Source: Actinopolymorpha singaporensis
GTDB taxonomy: Bacteria > Actinomycetota > Actinomycetes > Propionibacteriales > Actinopolymorphaceae
Length of the DNA stretch: 64,000 bases
Direction of reading: 5' to 3'
NCBI RefSeq assembly: GCF_900104745.1
Contig: NZ_LT629732.1
Coordinates: 3,211,981 to 3,275,980 of the forward strand
Part shown: in pieces, positions 2,035-16,247 of the stretch
Numbering within the stretch: position 1 is the first letter of the stretch
Layout: the number at the start of each line of letters is the position of its first letter
Notes under the pieces: model-generated
The model's database searches: none
The model's input: the letters and a program-made list of their open reading frames with translations, nothing else
What the model was told of the DNA's origin: nothing
Position numbers and translations under genes: made by a program

Positions 2035-4852
<2,818 letters not shown>

Positions 4853-4863
<11 letters not shown>

Positions 4864-5119: not shown

Positions 5120-5728
5120 TCAGCCCAGCTGGAGTGCGGTGCACCGCCAGCGCCCGTCGAGCCCCTCCAGCCGAACGGCCACCGCACGCGACCGTCCGCC
5201 GTGGTTGACGTGCACCGCCACCTCGGCGACTCCGTCCCGGGGTTCGCAGACGTGCACCGAACGGACCATCGCCCGGCCGCGGTCGCCGCGTTGGGCCGAA
5301 CCGGACGGCCCCAGCGCCCGCACGCGGTTGAGGACGTCGTTGTAGACCCGGTGGTCGGTCCACCGCAGCAGCTGGGCGGCCGGCCGGTCACCGGCCAGAA
5401 CCTCCACCAGCGCCTGGACGAACCGTCCCGACCACGATCGGGGATCGGGCAGCGCCACCCGCGGGGTCTGCTGGGGAGCGAAGAACGGGTCGTCGCGGTC
5501 GCGGAGGGCGTTGCGGCCTCCGACGACACTGAGGTGACGCGTCGCGGCAGCCGCCCGGTCGGCGACGGCCAGGTCCAGCGCGAGGGCCCCACGGGTCAGC
5601 GTCCGGCCGCCCCGGTCGGCTGGGCGCTCGTCGTCGTAGGCGGGCTCGGTGGAGGGAGTCGGTATCCGGCGGGGCAACGGCCGGATGGTCTCCCTCGCGA
5701 CCGGCAGCGGCTGCTGGGTTGCGATCAT
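5120..5728 (-). CDS. Rv3235-like protein (DUF6459 family)
   Basis: This 202-residue protein has a disordered, Pro/Arg-rich N-terminus (1-60) and a compact C-terminal domain (about 100-202) containing WSGRFVQALVEVLAGDRPAAQLLRWTDHRVYNDVL and a closing beta-rich segment. This matches the uncharacterised actinobacterial family that includes M. tuberculosis Rv3235, also found close to secA. The biochemical function is unknown. It starts at ATG 5728 after GGGGGA. The LysM protein gene lies just upstream on the same strand (stop to start 48 bp), so the two are probably co-transcribed. Confidence 0.75.
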   Translation of the reverse strand: MIATQQPLPVARETIRPLPRRIPTPSTEPAYDDERPADRGGRTLTRGALALDLAVADRAAAATRHLSVVGGRNALRDRDDPFFAPQQTPRVALPDPRSWSGRFVQALVEVLAGDRPAAQLLRWTDHRVYNDVLNRVRALGPSGSAQRGDRGRAMVRSVHVCEPRDGVAEVAVHVNHGGRSRAVAVRLEGLDGRWRCTALQLG

Positions 5729-5776: not shown

Positions 5777-6592
5777 TCAGGACTGAGGTGGGGTGAGGAT
5801 CTGACCGGGCTGGATCAGGTCGGGGTTGTCCCCGATGACCTGCCGGTTGGCGTCGTACCACCGGTGCCACTCGCGGTTGATCTCTGCGTTGCTGGCGTTT
5901 TCGGGCAGGTGCTGCTTGGCGATGTTCCAGAGGTTGTCCCCGCGCTTGACGACGATCTGCTGCTGGGAGTCGGCGCCGCGCACCGGTGCCCGGGTGATCG
6001 GGTCGGCGCTCGCCGGCCGGTCCGGATTGGGCAGGCCGGCCCGGTCGAAACCGATCCGGCCGGAGGTGGGCCGGTCGGGCATGGGGAGCTGGGAGTCGCG
6101 GATGTCCGTGCCGCCGGGGCGGTCGAGGTCGGGCAACTGGATGCCGCCGGGAAGCTGGCTGTCGATGGTGCCGGGGCGGTCGAGACCGGGCAGCATCTGC
6201 GCGGCCGCGGCGGCCTGGGTGGGCTGGTCGACCGTGGCGGCGTTGGCGGGCAGCGACCCGAGCACGGGCCCGGCGGCCACGGACAGGCCGAGCGCGACCC
6301 GGGCCGCCCGCCGGTAGAAGGCCGGAGTGACGCGTTCGGCCAGTGAGCCGCAGGCGGCGCCGATGGCTCCGGGCAGTGCGGACAGCGCCATCAGCACGGT
6401 GCCGAGTGCCAGCCAGGCGAAGCAGGCCCAGGCGAGCACCGCCACGACGAAGACCAGGAGCGCGTCGAAGGTCAGGGCACCGTCTCGCACCGCCGTCAGA
6501 CTGCCGGCGGTGAGCCAGCGAAGGGCCCAGGCGCCGGCGAGGAAGGCGAGCAGCACGCCGATGGGCGAGACGACCCGGCGGACGATCCGCAT
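5777..6592 (-). CDS. Membrane protein with C-terminal LysM domain
   Basis: This 271-residue protein has membrane segments at about residues 10-30 and 43-75 and a further hydrophobic stretch at 98-118. A Pro/Asp-rich linker with repeated DRPG and DRPTSG motifs follows, then a LysM-like domain (about 210-268) beginning IVVKRGDNLWNIAKQHL and ending IQPGQILTPP. LysM domains bind N-acetylglucosamine-containing glycans, so the protein probably tethers the membrane to peptidoglycan; this is a family inference. ATG 6592 is preceded by GGAGG at 7-nt spacing. Its leader carries two 10-bp direct repeats (6613-6632), the same type as in front of the helix-turn-helix gene nearby. Confidence 0.8.
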   Translation of the reverse strand: MRIVRRVVSPIGVLLAFLAGAWALRWLTAGSLTAVRDGALTFDALLVFVVAVLAWACFAWLALGTVLMALSALPGAIGAACGSLAERVTPAFYRRAARVALGLSVAAGPVLGSLPANAATVDQPTQAAAAAQMLPGLDRPGTIDSQLPGGIQLPDLDRPGGTDIRDSQLPMPDRPTSGRIGFDRAGLPNPDRPASADPITRAPVRGADSQQQIVVKRGDNLWNIAKQHLPENASNAEINREWHRWYDANRQVIGDNPDLIQPGQILTPPQS

Positions 6593-6612: not shown

Positions 6613-6632
6613 CGTTTGCTTGCGTTTGCCTT
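6613..6632 (+). promoter_or_regulatory. 10-bp direct-repeat site A, before the LysM gene
   Basis: CGTTTGCTTG (6613-6622) is directly followed by CGTTTGCCTT (6623-6632). The site lies 21 bp upstream of the LysM gene start, just outside its ribosome site. The 10-bp spacing places equal bases on one DNA face. It is related to sites B and C and is proposed as an operator for the helix-turn-helix protein at 7613-7846. Confidence 0.55.
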
Positions 6633-6859
6633 CATACTCTGCCGTTCGCTGAGCTGTCAACACACTTGCCGGCGACGGAGTGGCCGCCGCGGAGCGGCCA
6701 TGGACGCTCAAAAGAGCTCTGACCTGCGCTTTCGATCGCCGGCGCGGCTGGACGTTGGGTCAGGTCGGCCAGTGGACAGATCGGAAAATCTCCCGGACTG
6801 GTGTATCCGGACCTCCTTCTGCGGCCTGCACCTGCCTCGGCTCCACTGCACTGATACGT

Positions 6860-6909
6860 GTTTAGCATCGTTTGCTTGTGTTTGCTTGTGCTGACATCTG
6901 CTTGAACGT
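6860..6909 (+). promoter_or_regulatory. 10-bp direct-repeat site B, before the barrel-protein gene
   Basis: Two perfect units GTTTGCTTGT lie at 6870-6879 and 6880-6889. They are flanked in the same 10-bp phase by diverged units GTTTAGCATC (6860), GCTGACATCT (6890) and GCTTGAACGT (6900). The array ends about 70 bp before the GTG at 6981. Confidence 0.55.
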
Positions 6910-6980
6910 CGTAGGAGGGCGGGCGAGGCACCCCGTCGGGTCGTGATCACCACCCGTGGGTGAGGAAGTACGGTGGGCGC

Positions 6981-7535
6981 GTGCGCTGGGAAAGCCTCTT
7001 CGCCGACCTCGACTCCCAGATGGCGGAGCTGGAGGCGGCCGAACTCGCGTCGGAGGTTGCCGACCGGACCCGACGAGAGGTCGCGTTGTTCCGCCTGGTC
7101 GACCGGCTACGGCCCGCGTTCGGTCACCCCGTGACGGTCTTCACCCTCGGCGGCGGCAAGGTCACCGGGCACGTCTCCGGGGTGGGCGCGGACTGGCTGC
7201 TGGTCGCCGAGGACTTCCGCTTCGAGGTGCTGTTGCCGCTGGACTCCATCACGGGCATCACCGGACTCGGCAACCTCACCGCCGCACCGGGAAGTGAGGG
7301 GAAGGTCGCGGCGCGGCTGACGCTCGGCCACGCACTGCGCGGTGTGGCGCGCGACCGGTCGTCGGTGGCGGTGGCGTTACGCGATTCCACGACGGTCACC
7401 GGAACGATCGACCGGGTGGGTGCGGACTTCTTCGAGATGGCCGAGCACGGCCCGGCCGAGATCCGCCGTGCCCGCGACGTCAGAGGCGTGCGCACGGTGC
7501 CGTTCGGTGGGGTCGCGTTCGTTCGTCGTTCGTGA
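6981..7535 (+). CDS. Conserved actinobacterial protein with two small-barrel (Sm-like) repeats
   Basis: This protein of about 184 residues of unknown function begins with an acidic helix (WESLFADLDSQMAELEAAEL). Two related beta-rich units follow. The first has VTVFTLGGGKVTGHVSGVGADWLLVAED and the second VAVALRDSTTVTGTIDRVGADFFEMAEH. The shared pattern V-x-L-x(4)-VTG-x-(V/I)-x-x-VGAD resembles an Sm/SH3-like barrel, suggesting RNA or protein binding, but this is pattern reading only. GTG 6981 is preferred because the protein then begins VRWESLFADL after GGTGGG; an in-frame GTG at 6960 would add seven residues. It is transcribed divergently from the LysM gene. Confidence 0.65.
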   Translation: MRWESLFADLDSQMAELEAAELASEVADRTRREVALFRLVDRLRPAFGHPVTVFTLGGGKVTGHVSGVGADWLLVAEDFRFEVLLPLDSITGITGLGNLTAAPGSEGKVAARLTLGHALRGVARDRSSVAVALRDSTTVTGTIDRVGADFFEMAEHGPAEIRRARDVRGVRTVPFGGVAFVRRS

Positions 7536-7612
7536 GGAGCTGAACGCCGACCGTCCGGTCAGGTTGACAGGCGGCCCGGAGAGTGGGGCACTGCCCGGAG
7601 AACTGGCCCGGC

Positions 7613-7846
7613 CTACAACTCGTCGGCCTTGCCGTAGGGGTGAGTGGTGATGAAGTCGCGGGTCTCGGAGTACATCCGCTCGATGTAGGTCTCCAGGGCG
7701 GACGCCTCGACCCGCCACTGGCCCCGGCCGCCGATCTTGATCGCCGGAAGCTCGCCGCTGCGCACCAACGCGTAGGCCTGCGCTGACGAGATGTTGAGCA
7801 CTTCGGCAACATCGGCCAGCTGCAGGAACCTTGTCGTGCCAGGCAA
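7613..7846 (-). CDS. Small MerR/BldC-type helix-turn-helix DNA-binding protein
   Basis: This 77-residue protein is made almost entirely of a winged helix-turn-helix of the excisionase/MerR type (PF12728, HTH_17): FLQLADVAEVLNISSAQAYALVRSGELPAIKIGG then RGQWRVEASALETYIERMY. The TTG start at 7846 is chosen because AAGGAG lies 7 nt upstream; no ATG or GTG fits the domain. Proteins of this size, such as BldC, bind 9-10 bp direct repeats head-to-tail. Its own upstream region carries such repeats (7890-7919), as do two neighbouring promoters, so autoregulation and control of the LysM and barrel genes is a specific inference. It diverges from the cpaB-like gene. Confidence 0.8.
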   Translation of the reverse strand: MPGTTRFLQLADVAEVLNISSAQAYALVRSGELPAIKIGGRGQWRVEASALETYIERMYSETRDFITTHPYGKADEL

Positions 7847-7889
7847 CGCGTTCTCCTTCCGGGCTTGGTGCCTTGTCAGTCTGCCACGT

Positions 7890-7919
7890 GTTTGCTTGCG
7901 GTTGCGTTCGGTTGTCCAC
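7890..7919 (+). promoter_or_regulatory. 10-bp direct-repeat site C, before the HTH gene
   Basis: GTTTGCTTGC (7890-7899) is followed in phase by GGTTGCGTTC (7900-7909) and GGTTGTCCAC (7910-7919). It lies 44 bp upstream of the TTG start of the HTH gene, where a promoter would be expected. The first unit is nearly identical to the units of sites A and B. Confidence 0.55.
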
Positions 7920-8073: not shown

Positions 8074-8231
8074 CGTGCCCGGTTTGGGAGCAGGTGTGCC
8101 CGTCCTTCCGTGACAATCGGTGTCGTACTGTTCTGTCGGCAATCCGATCGGCAGATCCGATCGTCGGCCGGCACCCGTTCCAGCGTCTGCGTCCACCTGA
8201 CGTCGCGGCACCCATGAACCCGGAGGAACCC

Positions 8232-8903
8232 TTGTCGGATGCGCCGTCGCCCAAGGCCACTCGGCAGTCGCGGCCCAGGTGGCTCGACCCCAAGCTGTTT
8301 CTCGGCATCCTGCTGGTCCTCGCGTCCATGGCGCTCGGCGCACGGGTGATCTCGCAGTCGGACAAGACCGCCGAGATCTGGGCGGTGAAGGACGACGTGA
8401 CGCTCGCGCCGACGGCCACGCTCACCCAGAGCCAGCTGGTGGCCCGGAAGGTGCGCTTCACCAGCCAGAAGGACGCCGACCGCTACGTCTCGGCGACCGC
8501 GCAGATCCCGGAGGGTGCCCGGATGGTCCGCGAGGTCGGGCCCGGTGAGTTCCTTCCCCGGGACGCCTGGACCGACCAGGCCGACGACCAGCTGCTCGAC
8601 ACACCGATCCCCGTGACCGCGGCCGGCCTGCCCAAGTCGATCCACAAGGGCGACCGCGTCGACATCTACGTCGTGCGGGCCAACGACGACAAGTTCCGAC
8701 CGGACAGGGGCATCCTCGCCGCCAGCAACGTCATCGTCGTCGACCTGCCCACCGGCGGCGGCTTCGGCGGTGGCGGCGACACCAGTGCGACCGTGCGGGT
8801 GGCGCTCGACCAGATGAGCAAGGGGTTCTCCCTCGACCAGCTCGTCGGCGACGTCTCCGGCGGCAGGGCCGTCATCGTCAAGCACGTCGCACCGAAGAGG
8901 TGA
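8232..8903 (+). CDS. CpaB/RcpC-like SAF-domain protein of a Tad pilus system
   Basis: This protein of about 223 residues has a short cytoplasmic tail, one membrane segment (about 20-38, LFLGILLVLASMALGARVI) and an extracytoplasmic SAF region (about 45-120) with TLTQSQLVARKVRF and GEFLPRDAW. A C-terminal part containing KGDRVDIYVVRAND follows. CpaB/RcpC proteins are periplasmic or wall-facing parts of Tad (Flp) pilus machines. TTG 8232 is chosen because GGAGG lies 5 nt upstream; ATG 8214 is in frame but lacks a site. It is 4 nt upstream of the cpaE-like gene and clearly co-transcribed with it. The rest of the Tad genes lie near 44-49 kb. Confidence 0.78.
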   Translation: MSDAPSPKATRQSRPRWLDPKLFLGILLVLASMALGARVISQSDKTAEIWAVKDDVTLAPTATLTQSQLVARKVRFTSQKDADRYVSATAQIPEGARMVREVGPGEFLPRDAWTDQADDQLLDTPIPVTAAGLPKSIHKGDRVDIYVVRANDDKFRPDRGILAASNVIVVDLPTGGGFGGGGDTSATVRVALDQMSKGFSLDQLVGDVSGGRAVIVKHVAPKR

Positions 8904-8907
8904 CACC

Positions 8908-10212
8908 GTGAGCCTTCCCGTCCTCACCGCCGTCACCGGCGCACAGTGGGAGTCCGATCTCGTCTCGGCGCTGGAACGCAGTTCCCTGGGGCTGGACGTC
9001 GTCCGGCGCTGCGTCGACCTGCCCGACGTGCTCGCCACCGCCCAGTCCGGGCAGGCCCGCGCCGTGCTGTTGTCGGCCGACCTGCGCCGACTCGACCGCG
9101 ACGCGGTGGCCCGGCTGATGGCCGGAGGGGTCGCGGTGGTGGGCGTGGTGACCCCGGGCGACCTGGCGGGGGAGGACCGGTTGCGCCGGCTCGGCATCAG
9201 CCGGGTCGTTCCGGCGGACGCACCGGCCGACGTGCTCGCCGGAGCGGTGGCCGAGGCGGTGGAGGTCGCGCAGACCGCGGGGCCGGTGCCGGTGGCGGAG
9301 TTCGCGATGTCGGACCCGCACCGGTCGATGCCGACGCTGCCTCCGGCGGAGGAGGTGCCGGCGTACGAAACCGGTACGGGCACGGGCCAGCTGCTGGCGG
9401 TCTGGGGCCCCACCGGCGCGCCGGGCCGGACCTCCGTGGCGGTCACTCTCGCCACCGAGCTCTCGCTGTTCGGCGTACCCACCCTGCTCGCCGACGCCGA
9501 CGTCTACGGCGGCGTGGTGGCCCAGACCCTCGGCCTGCTCGACGAGGCACCCGGCCTCGCTGCCGCGTGCCGGTCCGCCAACAACGGCACCCTCGACCTG
9601 CCCGCGCTCGCCCGGCACGCCCGGGAGGTGCTGCCCAGGCTGCGGGTGCTGACCGGCATCCAACGTGCCGACCGGTGGCCGGAGCTTCGGGCCAGCGCAC
9701 TGGAGCAGGTCTGGGACCTGTCCCGCCAGCTCGCCGCGGCCATCGTGGTCGACTGCGGGTTCAGCCTCGAACAGGACGAGGAGATCTCCTTCGACACCGC
9801 GGCTCCCCGCCGAAACGGCGCGACTCTCACCACTCTGGAGCTCAGCGACACCGTGGTCGCCGTCGGCGCCGCCGACCCGATCGGACTGCAGCGACTGATC
9901 CGGGGGATCGAGGAGCTGCGGGAGGTCGTACCGGGCGCGGTGATCCGGGTGGTCGTCAACGGCGTACGCAAGGGGCCGGTGGGCGGTGACGCGGAGAGCC
10001 AGATCCGGGACGCGCTGCGGCGCTACGTCGGCGTCGACTCGGTGGTGTGCGTTCCGTACGACCGGGTCTCCTTCGACACCGCACTGGCCCAGGGCCGCAC
10101 CCTGTCGGAGGTAGCCGCCAAGTCGCCCGCCCGCGCTCCGCTGCGCGCGCTGGCCGCGGACCTGATGGGAATCACGATGCCCAAGCAGCGCCGGCGGGCA
10201 CGTAGGCGGTAG
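8908..10212 (+). CDS. CpaE/TadZ-like P-loop ATPase with atypical Walker A
   Basis: This 434-residue protein has a receiver-like N-terminal half (1-130), as in CpaE/TadZ, and a MinD/ParA-type domain (about 155-420) with LLADADVYGGVVAQTLGL and AIVVDCGF. TadZ proteins position Tad pilus assembly at the cell pole or septum. The nucleotide loop reads WGPTGAPGRTSVA, so the usual Walker A lysine is arginine (R174) and the loop has Ala-Pro where Gly-Val is common; ATP hydrolysis may be reduced. The GTG start at 8908 follows AAGAGG. The C-terminus is strongly basic (KQRRRARRR), which may help membrane or DNA contact. It forms an operon with the cpaB-like gene. Confidence 0.8.
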   Translation: MSLPVLTAVTGAQWESDLVSALERSSLGLDVVRRCVDLPDVLATAQSGQARAVLLSADLRRLDRDAVARLMAGGVAVVGVVTPGDLAGEDRLRRLGISRVVPADAPADVLAGAVAEAVEVAQTAGPVPVAEFAMSDPHRSMPTLPPAEEVPAYETGTGTGQLLAVWGPTGAPGRTSVAVTLATELSLFGVPTLLADADVYGGVVAQTLGLLDEAPGLAAACRSANNGTLDLPALARHAREVLPRLRVLTGIQRADRWPELRASALEQVWDLSRQLAAAIVVDCGFSLEQDEEISFDTAAPRRNGATLTTLELSDTVVAVGAADPIGLQRLIRGIEELREVVPGAVIRVVVNGVRKGPVGGDAESQIRDALRRYVGVDSVVCVPYDRVSFDTALAQGRTLSEVAAKSPARAPLRALAADLMGITMPKQRRRARRR

Positions 10213-13561: not shown

Positions 13562-14266
13562 TCAGCCGGCGGGCGACTCGTCCTCGACGTGCGAGCCCTC
13601 GGGCTCCTCGGCCGCGGCGGCCTTCACCACCGCCTCCAGCTTCGACCGGGCGCCGAGCTTCTCCAGGACCTTCCGCACGTGGCTGCGCACCGTGGGGTAG
13701 GCGATGTTGAGCCGGGCGGAGATCTCGCGGTTGTCCAGGCCCTTGGACATCATGGCGAGGATCTCGCGTTCGCGGGTGGTGAGGCTGGCCAGCGCCTGCG
13801 CCCGGTCACTGCGTTCGCGGGTGGCCTCCCGGCTGCGGGTGAGGAGCTCGTGCAGCCTCGACGCGGGAATGAGCATCTCCCCGGCCGCCGCACGCAGGAT
13901 CGCGTCCACGATCTCCTCACCGCTCGCGGTCTTGATGAGGTAGCCGGACGCCCCGGCCTCGATCGCGGCGATCATCGCCTGGTCGCTGTCGTCGGCGCTG
14001 ACGAAGACCACGGCTGCCTCGGGGCGGTGCCGACGGATCCCTGCGGCGGCGTCCACGCCGCTGCCGTCGGGTAGCCAGAAGTCGAGGACGGCGACGTCGA
14101 CGCGCTCCTGCTCGGCCGAGCGGGTGGCGTCGGCGACCGTCGGTGCCCAGCCCTGTACGTGCAGGCCGGGGTGGTCGTCGAGCAACGCGCAAAGGCCCTC
14201 CGCCACGACCTGGTGGTCTTCGACGATGAGGACCTGAACGGGCCCGGAGTTCGGCTCGGTGGTCAC
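13562..14266 (-). CDS. NarL/LuxR-type response regulator
   Basis: This 234-residue protein has an N-terminal receiver domain (about 10-128) with acidic residues in VEDHQ, phospho-acceptor D62 in VLDFWLPDGSG, and the conserved lysine in YLIKTAS. A LuxR helix-turn-helix follows (about 165-225): LTTREREILAMMSKGLDNREISARLNIAYPTVRSHVRKVLEKLGARSK. It should bind DNA as a phosphorylated dimer. GTG 14266 is the start. The gene lies 67 bp downstream of a hybrid PAS sensor kinase on the same strand, its probable partner. Confidence 0.92.
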   Translation of the reverse strand: MTTEPNSGPVQVLIVEDHQVVAEGLCALLDDHPGLHVQGWAPTVADATRSAEQERVDVAVLDFWLPDGSGVDAAAGIRRHRPEAAVVFVSADDSDQAMIAAIEAGASGYLIKTASGEEIVDAILRAAAGEMLIPASRLHELLTRSREATRERSDRAQALASLTTREREILAMMSKGLDNREISARLNIAYPTVRSHVRKVLEKLGARSKLEAVVKAAAAEEPEGSHVEDESPAG

Positions 14267-14333
14267 CGGCCGTCCCCGGGCTGTTCACGCTCGTGGGTGC
14301 CCTCCTGGGCACGCCTTGTCGCGGGCTTCGCGG

Positions 14334-16247
14334 TCACTGGTCGCCTCCGGTCATTCCCGCTTCCCGCGGGACCCAGAACTCCACGGTAGTCCCGGCCCCG
14401 GGCGCGCTCTCCACCCGGCACCACCCACCGGCGATCTCGGCGCGGTCGCGCATCAGCGTCAGTCCCAGATGCCCCGGTTTGGCCTCGGTTTCGAGTGGGT
14501 TGTAGCCCACGCCGTTGTCGATGATCTCCACGAGCACTCCGTCCTCGACGTCGGACAGCCGGACCCGCAGCTCGGTCGCCTCGGCGTGCACGCGGACGTT
14601 CATCAACGCCTCCTGGGCGATCCGGTAGATCAGCACCCGGGTCTCCTGCGGCGGCTCCACCTCCATCCGGCTCTCCAGTACGCACCGCAGGCTGGTCTCG
14701 GCATGCAACTGCTCGAGGTAGACGTTCATGGCCGCCATCAGGCCCTCCTGTTCGAGGGCGGGCGGGCGGAAGTCGAAGATCATGCGGCGGAGCCGGTCCG
14801 CGGCCAGCCGGATGGTCTCCTCCAGCTTGGCCAGCACCCGCAGGTCCTCCGGGTCGCGCAGCCGGCGCCGAAGCTGCTGCAGGCGCAGGGCCGCCGCGGT
14901 GATCACCTGCAGGCTGTCGTCGTGGATGCCGGCGGCGATCCGCAGCCGTTCGCGTTCCTGCGCGCCCACCAGGTCGACCAGGACGTGCCGGTGTTCCTGC
15001 CCGGCCGCGCGGAGGGCCTCCACGCTGCGTTCGAGGACCGCGCGCGAGCCGGCCGACTCGGTCATGTCCCGTACGGAGAGGATCACCCGAGGGCCGTCCT
15101 CGGTACGGATCCAGGCGAAGCTGACGTCGGCAGGGAAGTCGGTGCCGTCCCGCCGGCGGCCGGTCAGCTCCATGCCCTCCGGCGCCGTCGGCTCACCGGC
15201 CCGGTGCGGGGTCTCGTCGGTCTCCCGCCGGTAGATCGTCACCGGGTGGTCGGGGAGGAGCACGTCCACCGACTGGTTCACCAGGTCCTCGCGGGCGAAG
15301 CCGAACATCTGCTCCGCCGCCGCGCTCACCAGCCGGATCACTCCGGAGCTGTCCACGATCAGGGTGGCGTCCGGTGAGGACTCGAACAGCTGCTGGTACT
15401 GCGCCTCGGCCAGGCTGAGGTCGGTGATGTCGCGCAGGAACACCGCGACGCCGCGATGTCCGTGCGCCATCGGGCTGGCCGACACCTCCACCCGGAAGGT
15501 GTTGCCGTCCTTGCGGCGCCCGGACGCGGTGAAGTGCACCTCCGCCTGCTCCTCGCCCCCGCCGCGGCCGAGCAACCGGTGGATCACCTCGTCGGCCGGC
15601 TCGCCGTACCCCGACGCCGGGACGAGCTTGGTGATCGGCTCGCCGATCACCTCCATCCGGCGGTAGCCGAAGAGTTCCTGGACGCGTGCGTTGACCGTTT
15701 CGATGGTGCCGTCCGGGCCGACCAGGACCGCTGCCGCACCCACCCTGTCCAGGAGCTGGCGGAGAGTGTTGGCGTTCTGCAGGGTCGCCGCGCCGGTACG
15801 GCGTTCGTTCTCCAGGTTGCGGCGCAGCACCTGGATGCACTCGCGTGCCAGTGGGACGGAGATGCTCAGCTGGCCGCGGGCGGACCGGGTGATGGCCTCC
15901 AGGATCTCCTCGTCGGGGATGCCCTTGACGAGGTAGCCGCTGGCGCCGGCGGCCAGCACGTCCACCGCGCTGCCGGGATCCTCGTACGCCGACAGCACCA
16001 GCACCGCCGTGGTCGGGCTTCCGTCCAGGATCGAGCGCACGCTGGCCTGTGCGGTGCCGCCGGGCATCCGGACGTCGAGCACCACGACCCGCGGCCGGTC
16101 CCGCAGGGCGAGGCGTACGGCGTCGGGATGGCTGACCGCCTGCCCCACCAACTCCAGGTTGGGCTGCATCGCGATCAGATCGGCCAGCGCGTCGCGCAGT
16201 GCGCGGTCGTCGTCGGCGATGACGACCCGGACGGACTGTTCAGGCAT
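14334..16247 (-). CDS. Hybrid sensor kinase: REC-PAS-PAS-HisKA_3-HATPase
   Basis: This 637-residue protein starts with a full receiver domain (5-125; DDD acidic pocket, D58 in VVVLDVRMPGG, lysine in YLVKGIP). It continues with two PAS domains (about 165-285 and 290-405) and ends with a NarX-type kinase core. H442 in ERERLRIAAGIHDDSLQV is the phosphorylation site, the N-box is near YRIAQEALMNVRVHA, and the G-box is in IIDNGVGYN. There is no membrane segment, so it senses a cytoplasmic signal. An N-terminal receiver on a kinase suggests it also receives phosphate. Its ATG overlaps the stop of the upstream 147-residue gene by 8 nt, so the two are translationally coupled. Confidence 0.9.
   Translation of the reverse strand: MPEQSVRVVIADDDRALRDALADLIAMQPNLELVGQAVSHPDAVRLALRDRPRVVVLDVRMPGGTAQASVRSILDGSPTTAVLVLSAYEDPGSAVDVLAAGASGYLVKGIPDEEILEAITRSARGQLSISVPLARECIQVLRRNLENERRTGAATLQNANTLRQLLDRVGAAAVLVGPDGTIETVNARVQELFGYRRMEVIGEPITKLVPASGYGEPADEVIHRLLGRGGGEEQAEVHFTASGRRKDGNTFRVEVSASPMAHGHRGVAVFLRDITDLSLAEAQYQQLFESSPDATLIVDSSGVIRLVSAAAEQMFGFAREDLVNQSVDVLLPDHPVTIYRRETDETPHRAGEPTAPEGMELTGRRRDGTDFPADVSFAWIRTEDGPRVILSVRDMTESAGSRAVLERSVEALRAAGQEHRHVLVDLVGAQERERLRIAAGIHDDSLQVITAAALRLQQLRRRLRDPEDLRVLAKLEETIRLAADRLRRMIFDFRPPALEQEGLMAAMNVYLEQLHAETSLRCVLESRMEVEPPQETRVLIYRIAQEALMNVRVHAEATELRVRLSDVEDGVLVEIIDNGVGYNPLETEAKPGHLGLTLMRDRAEIAGGWCRVESAPGAGTTVEFWVPREAGMTGGDQ

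Follow-up and report, generated by a model that had tools for sequence, protein, structure and literature searches.

In Actinopolymorpha singaporensis, a small gene annotated as coding for a helix-turn-helix (HTH) protein of 77 residues lies among three groups of tandem 10-bp repeats, and this arrangement raises the question of which protein reads the repeats and which genes are controlled through them. The window analysed is a stretch of 64,000 nucleotides of contig NZ_LT629732.1, and all coordinates given below refer to it.

Organization of the locus

The genes that concern us are the following:
2035–4863, plus strand: secA, a conserved neighbour that anchors the locus
5120–5728, minus strand: gene of a DUF6459 protein, downstream of the LysM gene and a putative direct target where the latter is missing
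5777–6592, minus strand: gene of a LysM membrane protein (271 residues), the main putative target
6981–7535, plus strand: barrel gene (184 residues), the second putative target in Actinopolymorpha
7613–7843, minus strand: gene of the winged-HTH putative regulator (HTH_17, 77 residues), with a TTG start and a GGAAGGAG ribosome site
8214–8903, plus strand: SAF/CpaB-like gene, divergent from the HTH gene
8908–10212, plus strand: CpaE/TadZ-like ATPase gene, a conserved neighbour

The gene order CpaE-SAF, HTH, barrel, LysM-DUF6459, secA is kept in many actinobacterial loci, the closest named relatives being Actinopolymorpha rutila and A. alba, and the HTH gene is separated from the LysM gene in named Nocardioides loci and in g8 genomes. 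A preliminary description of this DNA had regarded the genes under control as coding for envelope proteins; this applies to the LysM protein, which combines membrane segments with LysM, but not to the barrel protein, for which no Pfam match was found. The window also contains PAS-domain and LuxR-type two-component genes (13562–16247), which follow the CpaE, WS/DGAT and patatin genes, and the CpaB-CpaE operon of Micrococcus luteus likewise includes a PAS histidine kinase.

Three tandem repeat sites in the window

A search of the whole window for the tandem 20-mer, allowing up to three mismatches, gave three sites only (6614–6633 with two mismatches, 6870–6889 with none and 7890–7909 with three), while none was found in 100 dinucleotide shuffles of the window. 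When the pattern search was extended to the 6.4-Mb genome, GTTTGCTTGYGKTTGC matched exactly at the three sites A, B and C and nowhere else; there was no match with one mismatch, and there were six with two. The local regulon that had been proposed is not confined to the locus in every family. The sites are:
6614–6633, minus strand: site A, with two 10-bp units (GCAAACGCAA GCAAACG) that cover the predicted start of LysM transcription
6860–6889, minus strand: site B, three 10-bp units (GCAAACACAA GCAAACGATG CTAAAC), upstream of the barrel gene
7890–7905, minus strand: site C, upstream of the HTH gene, with two units (GCAACCGCAA GCAAAC) and a weak third one reaching about 7915

Read on the minus strand, the 10-bp unit is GCAAACNNNN. 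Its GTTTGC complement starts at 6614 and 6624 in site A, at 6870 and 6880 in site B and at 7890 in site C, with the variants GTTTAG at 6860 (site B) and GGTTGC at 7900 (site C). At all three sites, GCAAAC on the minus strand is sense for the LysM and HTH genes and antisense for the barrel gene. The three sites are thus tandem, as had been described, but the extension of site B to 6909 and of site C to 7919 rests on weak units.

The placement of the sites before the LysM, barrel and HTH genes was also confirmed. Between site A, which is found at the downstream side of a TTGACA-18-TATGAA promoter, and the LysM ATG there are about 21 bp; the corresponding distances are about 90 bp from site B to the barrel GTG (6981) and about 46 bp from site C to the TTG start of the HTH gene (7843). 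The predicted promoter elements are:
6631–6636, minus strand: predicted -10 (TATGAA) of the LysM promoter, kept in L037, L038 and L160–L164
6655–6660, minus strand: predicted -35 (TTGACA) of the LysM promoter, with an 18-bp spacer, kept in relatives
7878–7883, minus strand: -10-like CAGACT of the HTH promoter, directly downstream of site C

Conservation and placement of the repeats in relatives

Comparison of the loci shows the repeats themselves, their age, their position with respect to predicted promoters and their co-variation with the HTH protein. Sites A and B recur within Actinopolymorpha. The position of site A is the same in L037, L038 and L159–L164; site B is kept in L037 and L038, and has about four units in L159. 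Site C is degenerate in the A. singaporensis window, and L159, which belongs to a neighbouring genus, carries a perfect GCAAACACAGGCAAAC at the corresponding position.

On a wider scale, repeats spaced by 10 bp precede the LysM gene in 179 of 189 barrel-linked loci of relatives, a redundant set that corresponds to 112 distinct HTH sequences. GYAAAC pairs spaced by exactly 10 bp were counted in 41 named loci: there were 29 in the 400-bp barrel-LysM regions and one in the remaining 363 kb, and no other pair spacing was enriched. Relatives whose HTH protein has Lys or Gln at position 37 (K37 or Q37) nearly all keep the 10-bp repeats before the LysM gene. Some genomes have the HTH gene and no recognisable repeats, and their proteins are mostly R37 or strongly diverged; L262 was mis-scored by the automatic repeat caller, since its ATCAAA units are plain by eye.

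In the relatives, where promoters were called by eye, the repeats of the barrel-LysM intergenic region usually follow directly a promoter resembling TTGAC-17/18-TANNNT, so that in most clades the operator lies at or after the predicted LysM start point; in Intrasporangiaceae, the repeats lie between the -35 and the -10 of the LysM promoter. Repeats before the HTH gene were found in Actinopolymorpha, L159, L246 and three f6 genomes (G415, G416 and G439), and such putative autoregulatory sites were not seen in all lineages. The HTH genes of relatives are preceded by a recurring element similar to TGGCARACTG.

Particular situations were observed in single groups. In L256–L260 (family f32 g65), the HTH protein is strongly diverged, and neither a LysM gene nor convincing repeats were found at the locus; here the HTH-operator module appears to be decaying. 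Family f18 (L230–L240) has extra sites of the GCAAAC type before other genes, namely a family of 213–214 residues (three copies seen), one of 171–175 residues, and two similar ORFs of about 655–665 residues, NERD-like on inspection by eye; in this family, the regulon may be larger. Genome G377 contains four paralogues of this HTH family.

The repeats follow the HTH gene in cis and in trans

Co-occurrence of the repeats with the HTH gene was examined across genomes. All 38 f3 genomes have both the gene and the repeat pattern, whereas the gene is present in none of 50 f2 genomes, which have no site at the locus; the pattern matched in six f2 genomes, and the four examples examined are all outside the locus. 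In the g8 genomes, the HTH gene is located elsewhere (0.1–2 Mb off in single-contig genomes) and the site is kept: the pattern was found in 28 of 32 genomes, exactly once in each, and the five matches examined were all at the LysM gene. The site is likewise kept in G314, where the HTH gene is far from the LysM gene. In the scan of the order, a reversed control pattern also matched in places, and for this reason we gave more weight to the location of the matches than to their number.

In a class-wide scan, strict matches were found in 40 of 86 genomes with a close HTH protein as compared to 21 of 165 without it (Fisher p = 9e-9), and every linked match was on the HTH strand. In the g6 genomes, the pattern typical of Q37 lineages occurs exactly once genome-wide in eight of nine genomes tested, about 620–715 bp from the HTH gene. 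The co-occurrence expected from the preliminary description is thus borne out: nearly all K37 and Q37 relatives keep the repeats, lineages without the HTH gene lack them, and the unit changes with the protein.

Two genomes, G214 and G294, lack a LysM gene at the locus, and their operator lies before the DUF6459 gene (in G294 also before the HTH gene). No match to the barrel gene was obtained in either genome at E ≤ 0.001, and since both keep the HTH gene and the operator, the barrel protein was rejected as the binder. Judged from the distribution of these sequences among genomes, the repeats track the HTH gene, and neither mtrA nor the barrel gene.

Residue 37 and the change of the unit

In the Q37 lineages (g6 of the same order, family f6 and G339 of f40), the unit is (A/G)TCAAAY and the 10-bp period is kept. 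Whole-genome scans of 49 Q37 genomes gave 36 matches as compared to 2 for the control, nearly all at the HTH-LysM locus. Counted over distinct proteins, the variable base of the unit was G in 52, T in 4 and C in 7 of the K37 proteins, and T in 33, C in 2 and G in none of the Q37 proteins; considering only G and T, GCAAAC goes with K37 in 52 of 56 cases and TCAAAC with Q37 in 33 of 33. Residue 37 changed at least four times on the tree of neighbouring proteins; of three supported independent pairs, an average of 2.7 show the base changing in the same direction and none in the opposite one, with too few independent events for significance (sign test, p = 0.25). Other positions of the HTH protein, mainly C-terminal, have similar mutual information with the unit through shared ancestry. 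Because independent changes are few and significance is not reached, residue 37 is taken as a marker of the specificity change and not as a proven contact. R37 proteins occur both with repeats of the TCAAA type (L287–L289, three f6 genomes) and with GCAAAC (L158).

Fold of the 77-residue protein and comparison with known systems

The only domain found in the 77-residue protein is HTH_17. It is a small, stand-alone protein devoid of an effector domain, as BldC-family proteins are, and its AF2 model is a winged HTH (pLDDT 90) whose best solved fold matches are phage Xis and BldC. BldC (6amk/6ama) matched with TMt 0.78–0.87 and was the best VIA match (Z 7.9, 1.2–2.4 Å over 51–54 residues), although not a unique one, phage Xis reaching Z 7.5; BldC was absent from the matches of the sequence-based structure search and surfaced by fold alone. 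The best HTH paralogue in the A. singaporensis genome (L003) is a distant excisionase-like protein.

In Streptomyces, BldC (PDB 6AMA, 6AMK) binds direct repeats of 9-bp units, AATTXXXX(C), in variable number, and contacts bases through Lys26 and Arg30 (PMC5859096). The operators described here are also tandem direct repeats in variable number (2–4 units), but the unit is of 10 bp (GCAAACNNNN or ATCAAACNNN) and the putative regulon, unlike that of BldC, is local. From an alignment by eye with BldC, the residues at the two contact positions are presumably Ala22 and Ala26. We therefore set this system apart from BldC itself, since unit, period and base-contacting residues differ; the term "BldC-like" of the preliminary description suits the fold and not the operator sequence or the contacts. 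By analogy, the best explanation is that the protein works like BldC with a different operator. The directionality factors RdfS and Xis (8DGL, 4J2N) share the fold and are oligomeric winged-HTH proteins, but they act with integrases, whereas the sites described here are at promoters; no recombinase was seen at the locus.

A counterpart is found in M. luteus, where Mlut_14660, an HTH_17 gene of the "excisionase family", is divergent from a CpaB/SAF-CpaE operon; point mutations in it raised comEA/EC expression, attempts to delete it failed, and no operator or binding site was described (PMC8467076). The HTH gene studied here has the same annotation and the same divergent arrangement with CpaB(SAF)-CpaE, and on annotation and gene order the two very probably belong to one orthologous group. 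An operator at the com genes was considered as the cause of the M. luteus phenotype and rejected, because no convincing repeats were found before the com genes at 16 f6 loci; for the same reason, the effect on competence genes is probably indirect.

A model of repression and its alternatives

We consider it likely, on the comparative evidence, that the 77-residue protein binds the repeats head-to-tail and represses the LysM operon, and that in Actinopolymorpha it also controls itself and the barrel gene. By analogy with BldC (PMC5859096), monomers of the stand-alone winged-HTH protein would line up on the tandem 10-bp direct repeats in a head-to-tail row, with one monomer for each helical turn. 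At site A, this row would cover the transcript start of LysM-DUF6459 and block initiation; at site C, it would lie against the -10 of its own gene, giving negative autoregulation, which we infer for some clades; and at site B it would control the barrel gene. Direct binding and packing remain parts of the model, and repression rather than activation is inferred because the operators overlie the predicted start or the core promoter.

The same protein might instead activate the LysM gene by remodelling its promoter as MerR does, a reading to which the MerR/BldC-like fold and the Intrasporangiaceae repeats, located between -35 and -10 like MerR sites, lend some weight. We regard it as unlikely, given that in most clades the repeats are at or after the predicted start, where activators rarely bind, and that the LysM promoter combines a good -35 with a spacer of 18 bp.

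The OmpR-type response regulator MtrA is a different candidate for the binder: it controls cell-wall genes through direct-repeat operators, its sites are loose direct repeats of 5–6 bp separated by 5 bp (PMC5650626), and mtrA is about 15 kb away, near secA. It was nevertheless rejected, as MtrA is present where the operator is absent: it occurs in 137 of 147 genomes of the order, among them most of the f2 genomes, which lack HTH gene and operator, and most of the g6 genomes, where the operator is altered. Unit and period also differ (10 bp here vs. about 11 for MtrA), so that binding by MtrA seems very improbable. Least credible of all is that the repeats function in RNA, as an element of the LysM mRNA 5' leader. 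Site A does fall within the predicted leader, but the repeats precede the -10 at site C, sit in the -35/-10 spacer in Intrasporangiaceae and are antisense to the barrel gene at site B; this idea was discarded because the position of the repeats differs between clades.

A broader picture is offered tentatively and with slightly less than even confidence. The HTH protein and its operator would form an ancient actinobacterial pair separate from BldC, the 10-bp unit having shifted from GCAAAC to TCAAAC on three or more occasions along with K37Q; nature would thereby have tested a one-residue code of specificity for a head-to-tail filament of winged-HTH proteins, and the secA-linked LysM envelope module would be coupled to a Tad-pilus-like gene pair.

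Significance

Neither a description of this operator nor papers on the locus were found in the literature searched, in line with the view that the regulon was undescribed. The comparison suggests that protein and repeats have travelled and changed together over much of Actinobacteria, and hence that they may form an old, so far undescribed switch of a cell-envelope gene. A predicted binding site and a predicted target can be given to a family annotated only as "excisionase-family DNA-binding protein", whose M. luteus member could not be deleted and affects competence. The pair may also serve as a simple model in which to study how small winged-HTH proteins recognise tandem repeats and shift their specificity.
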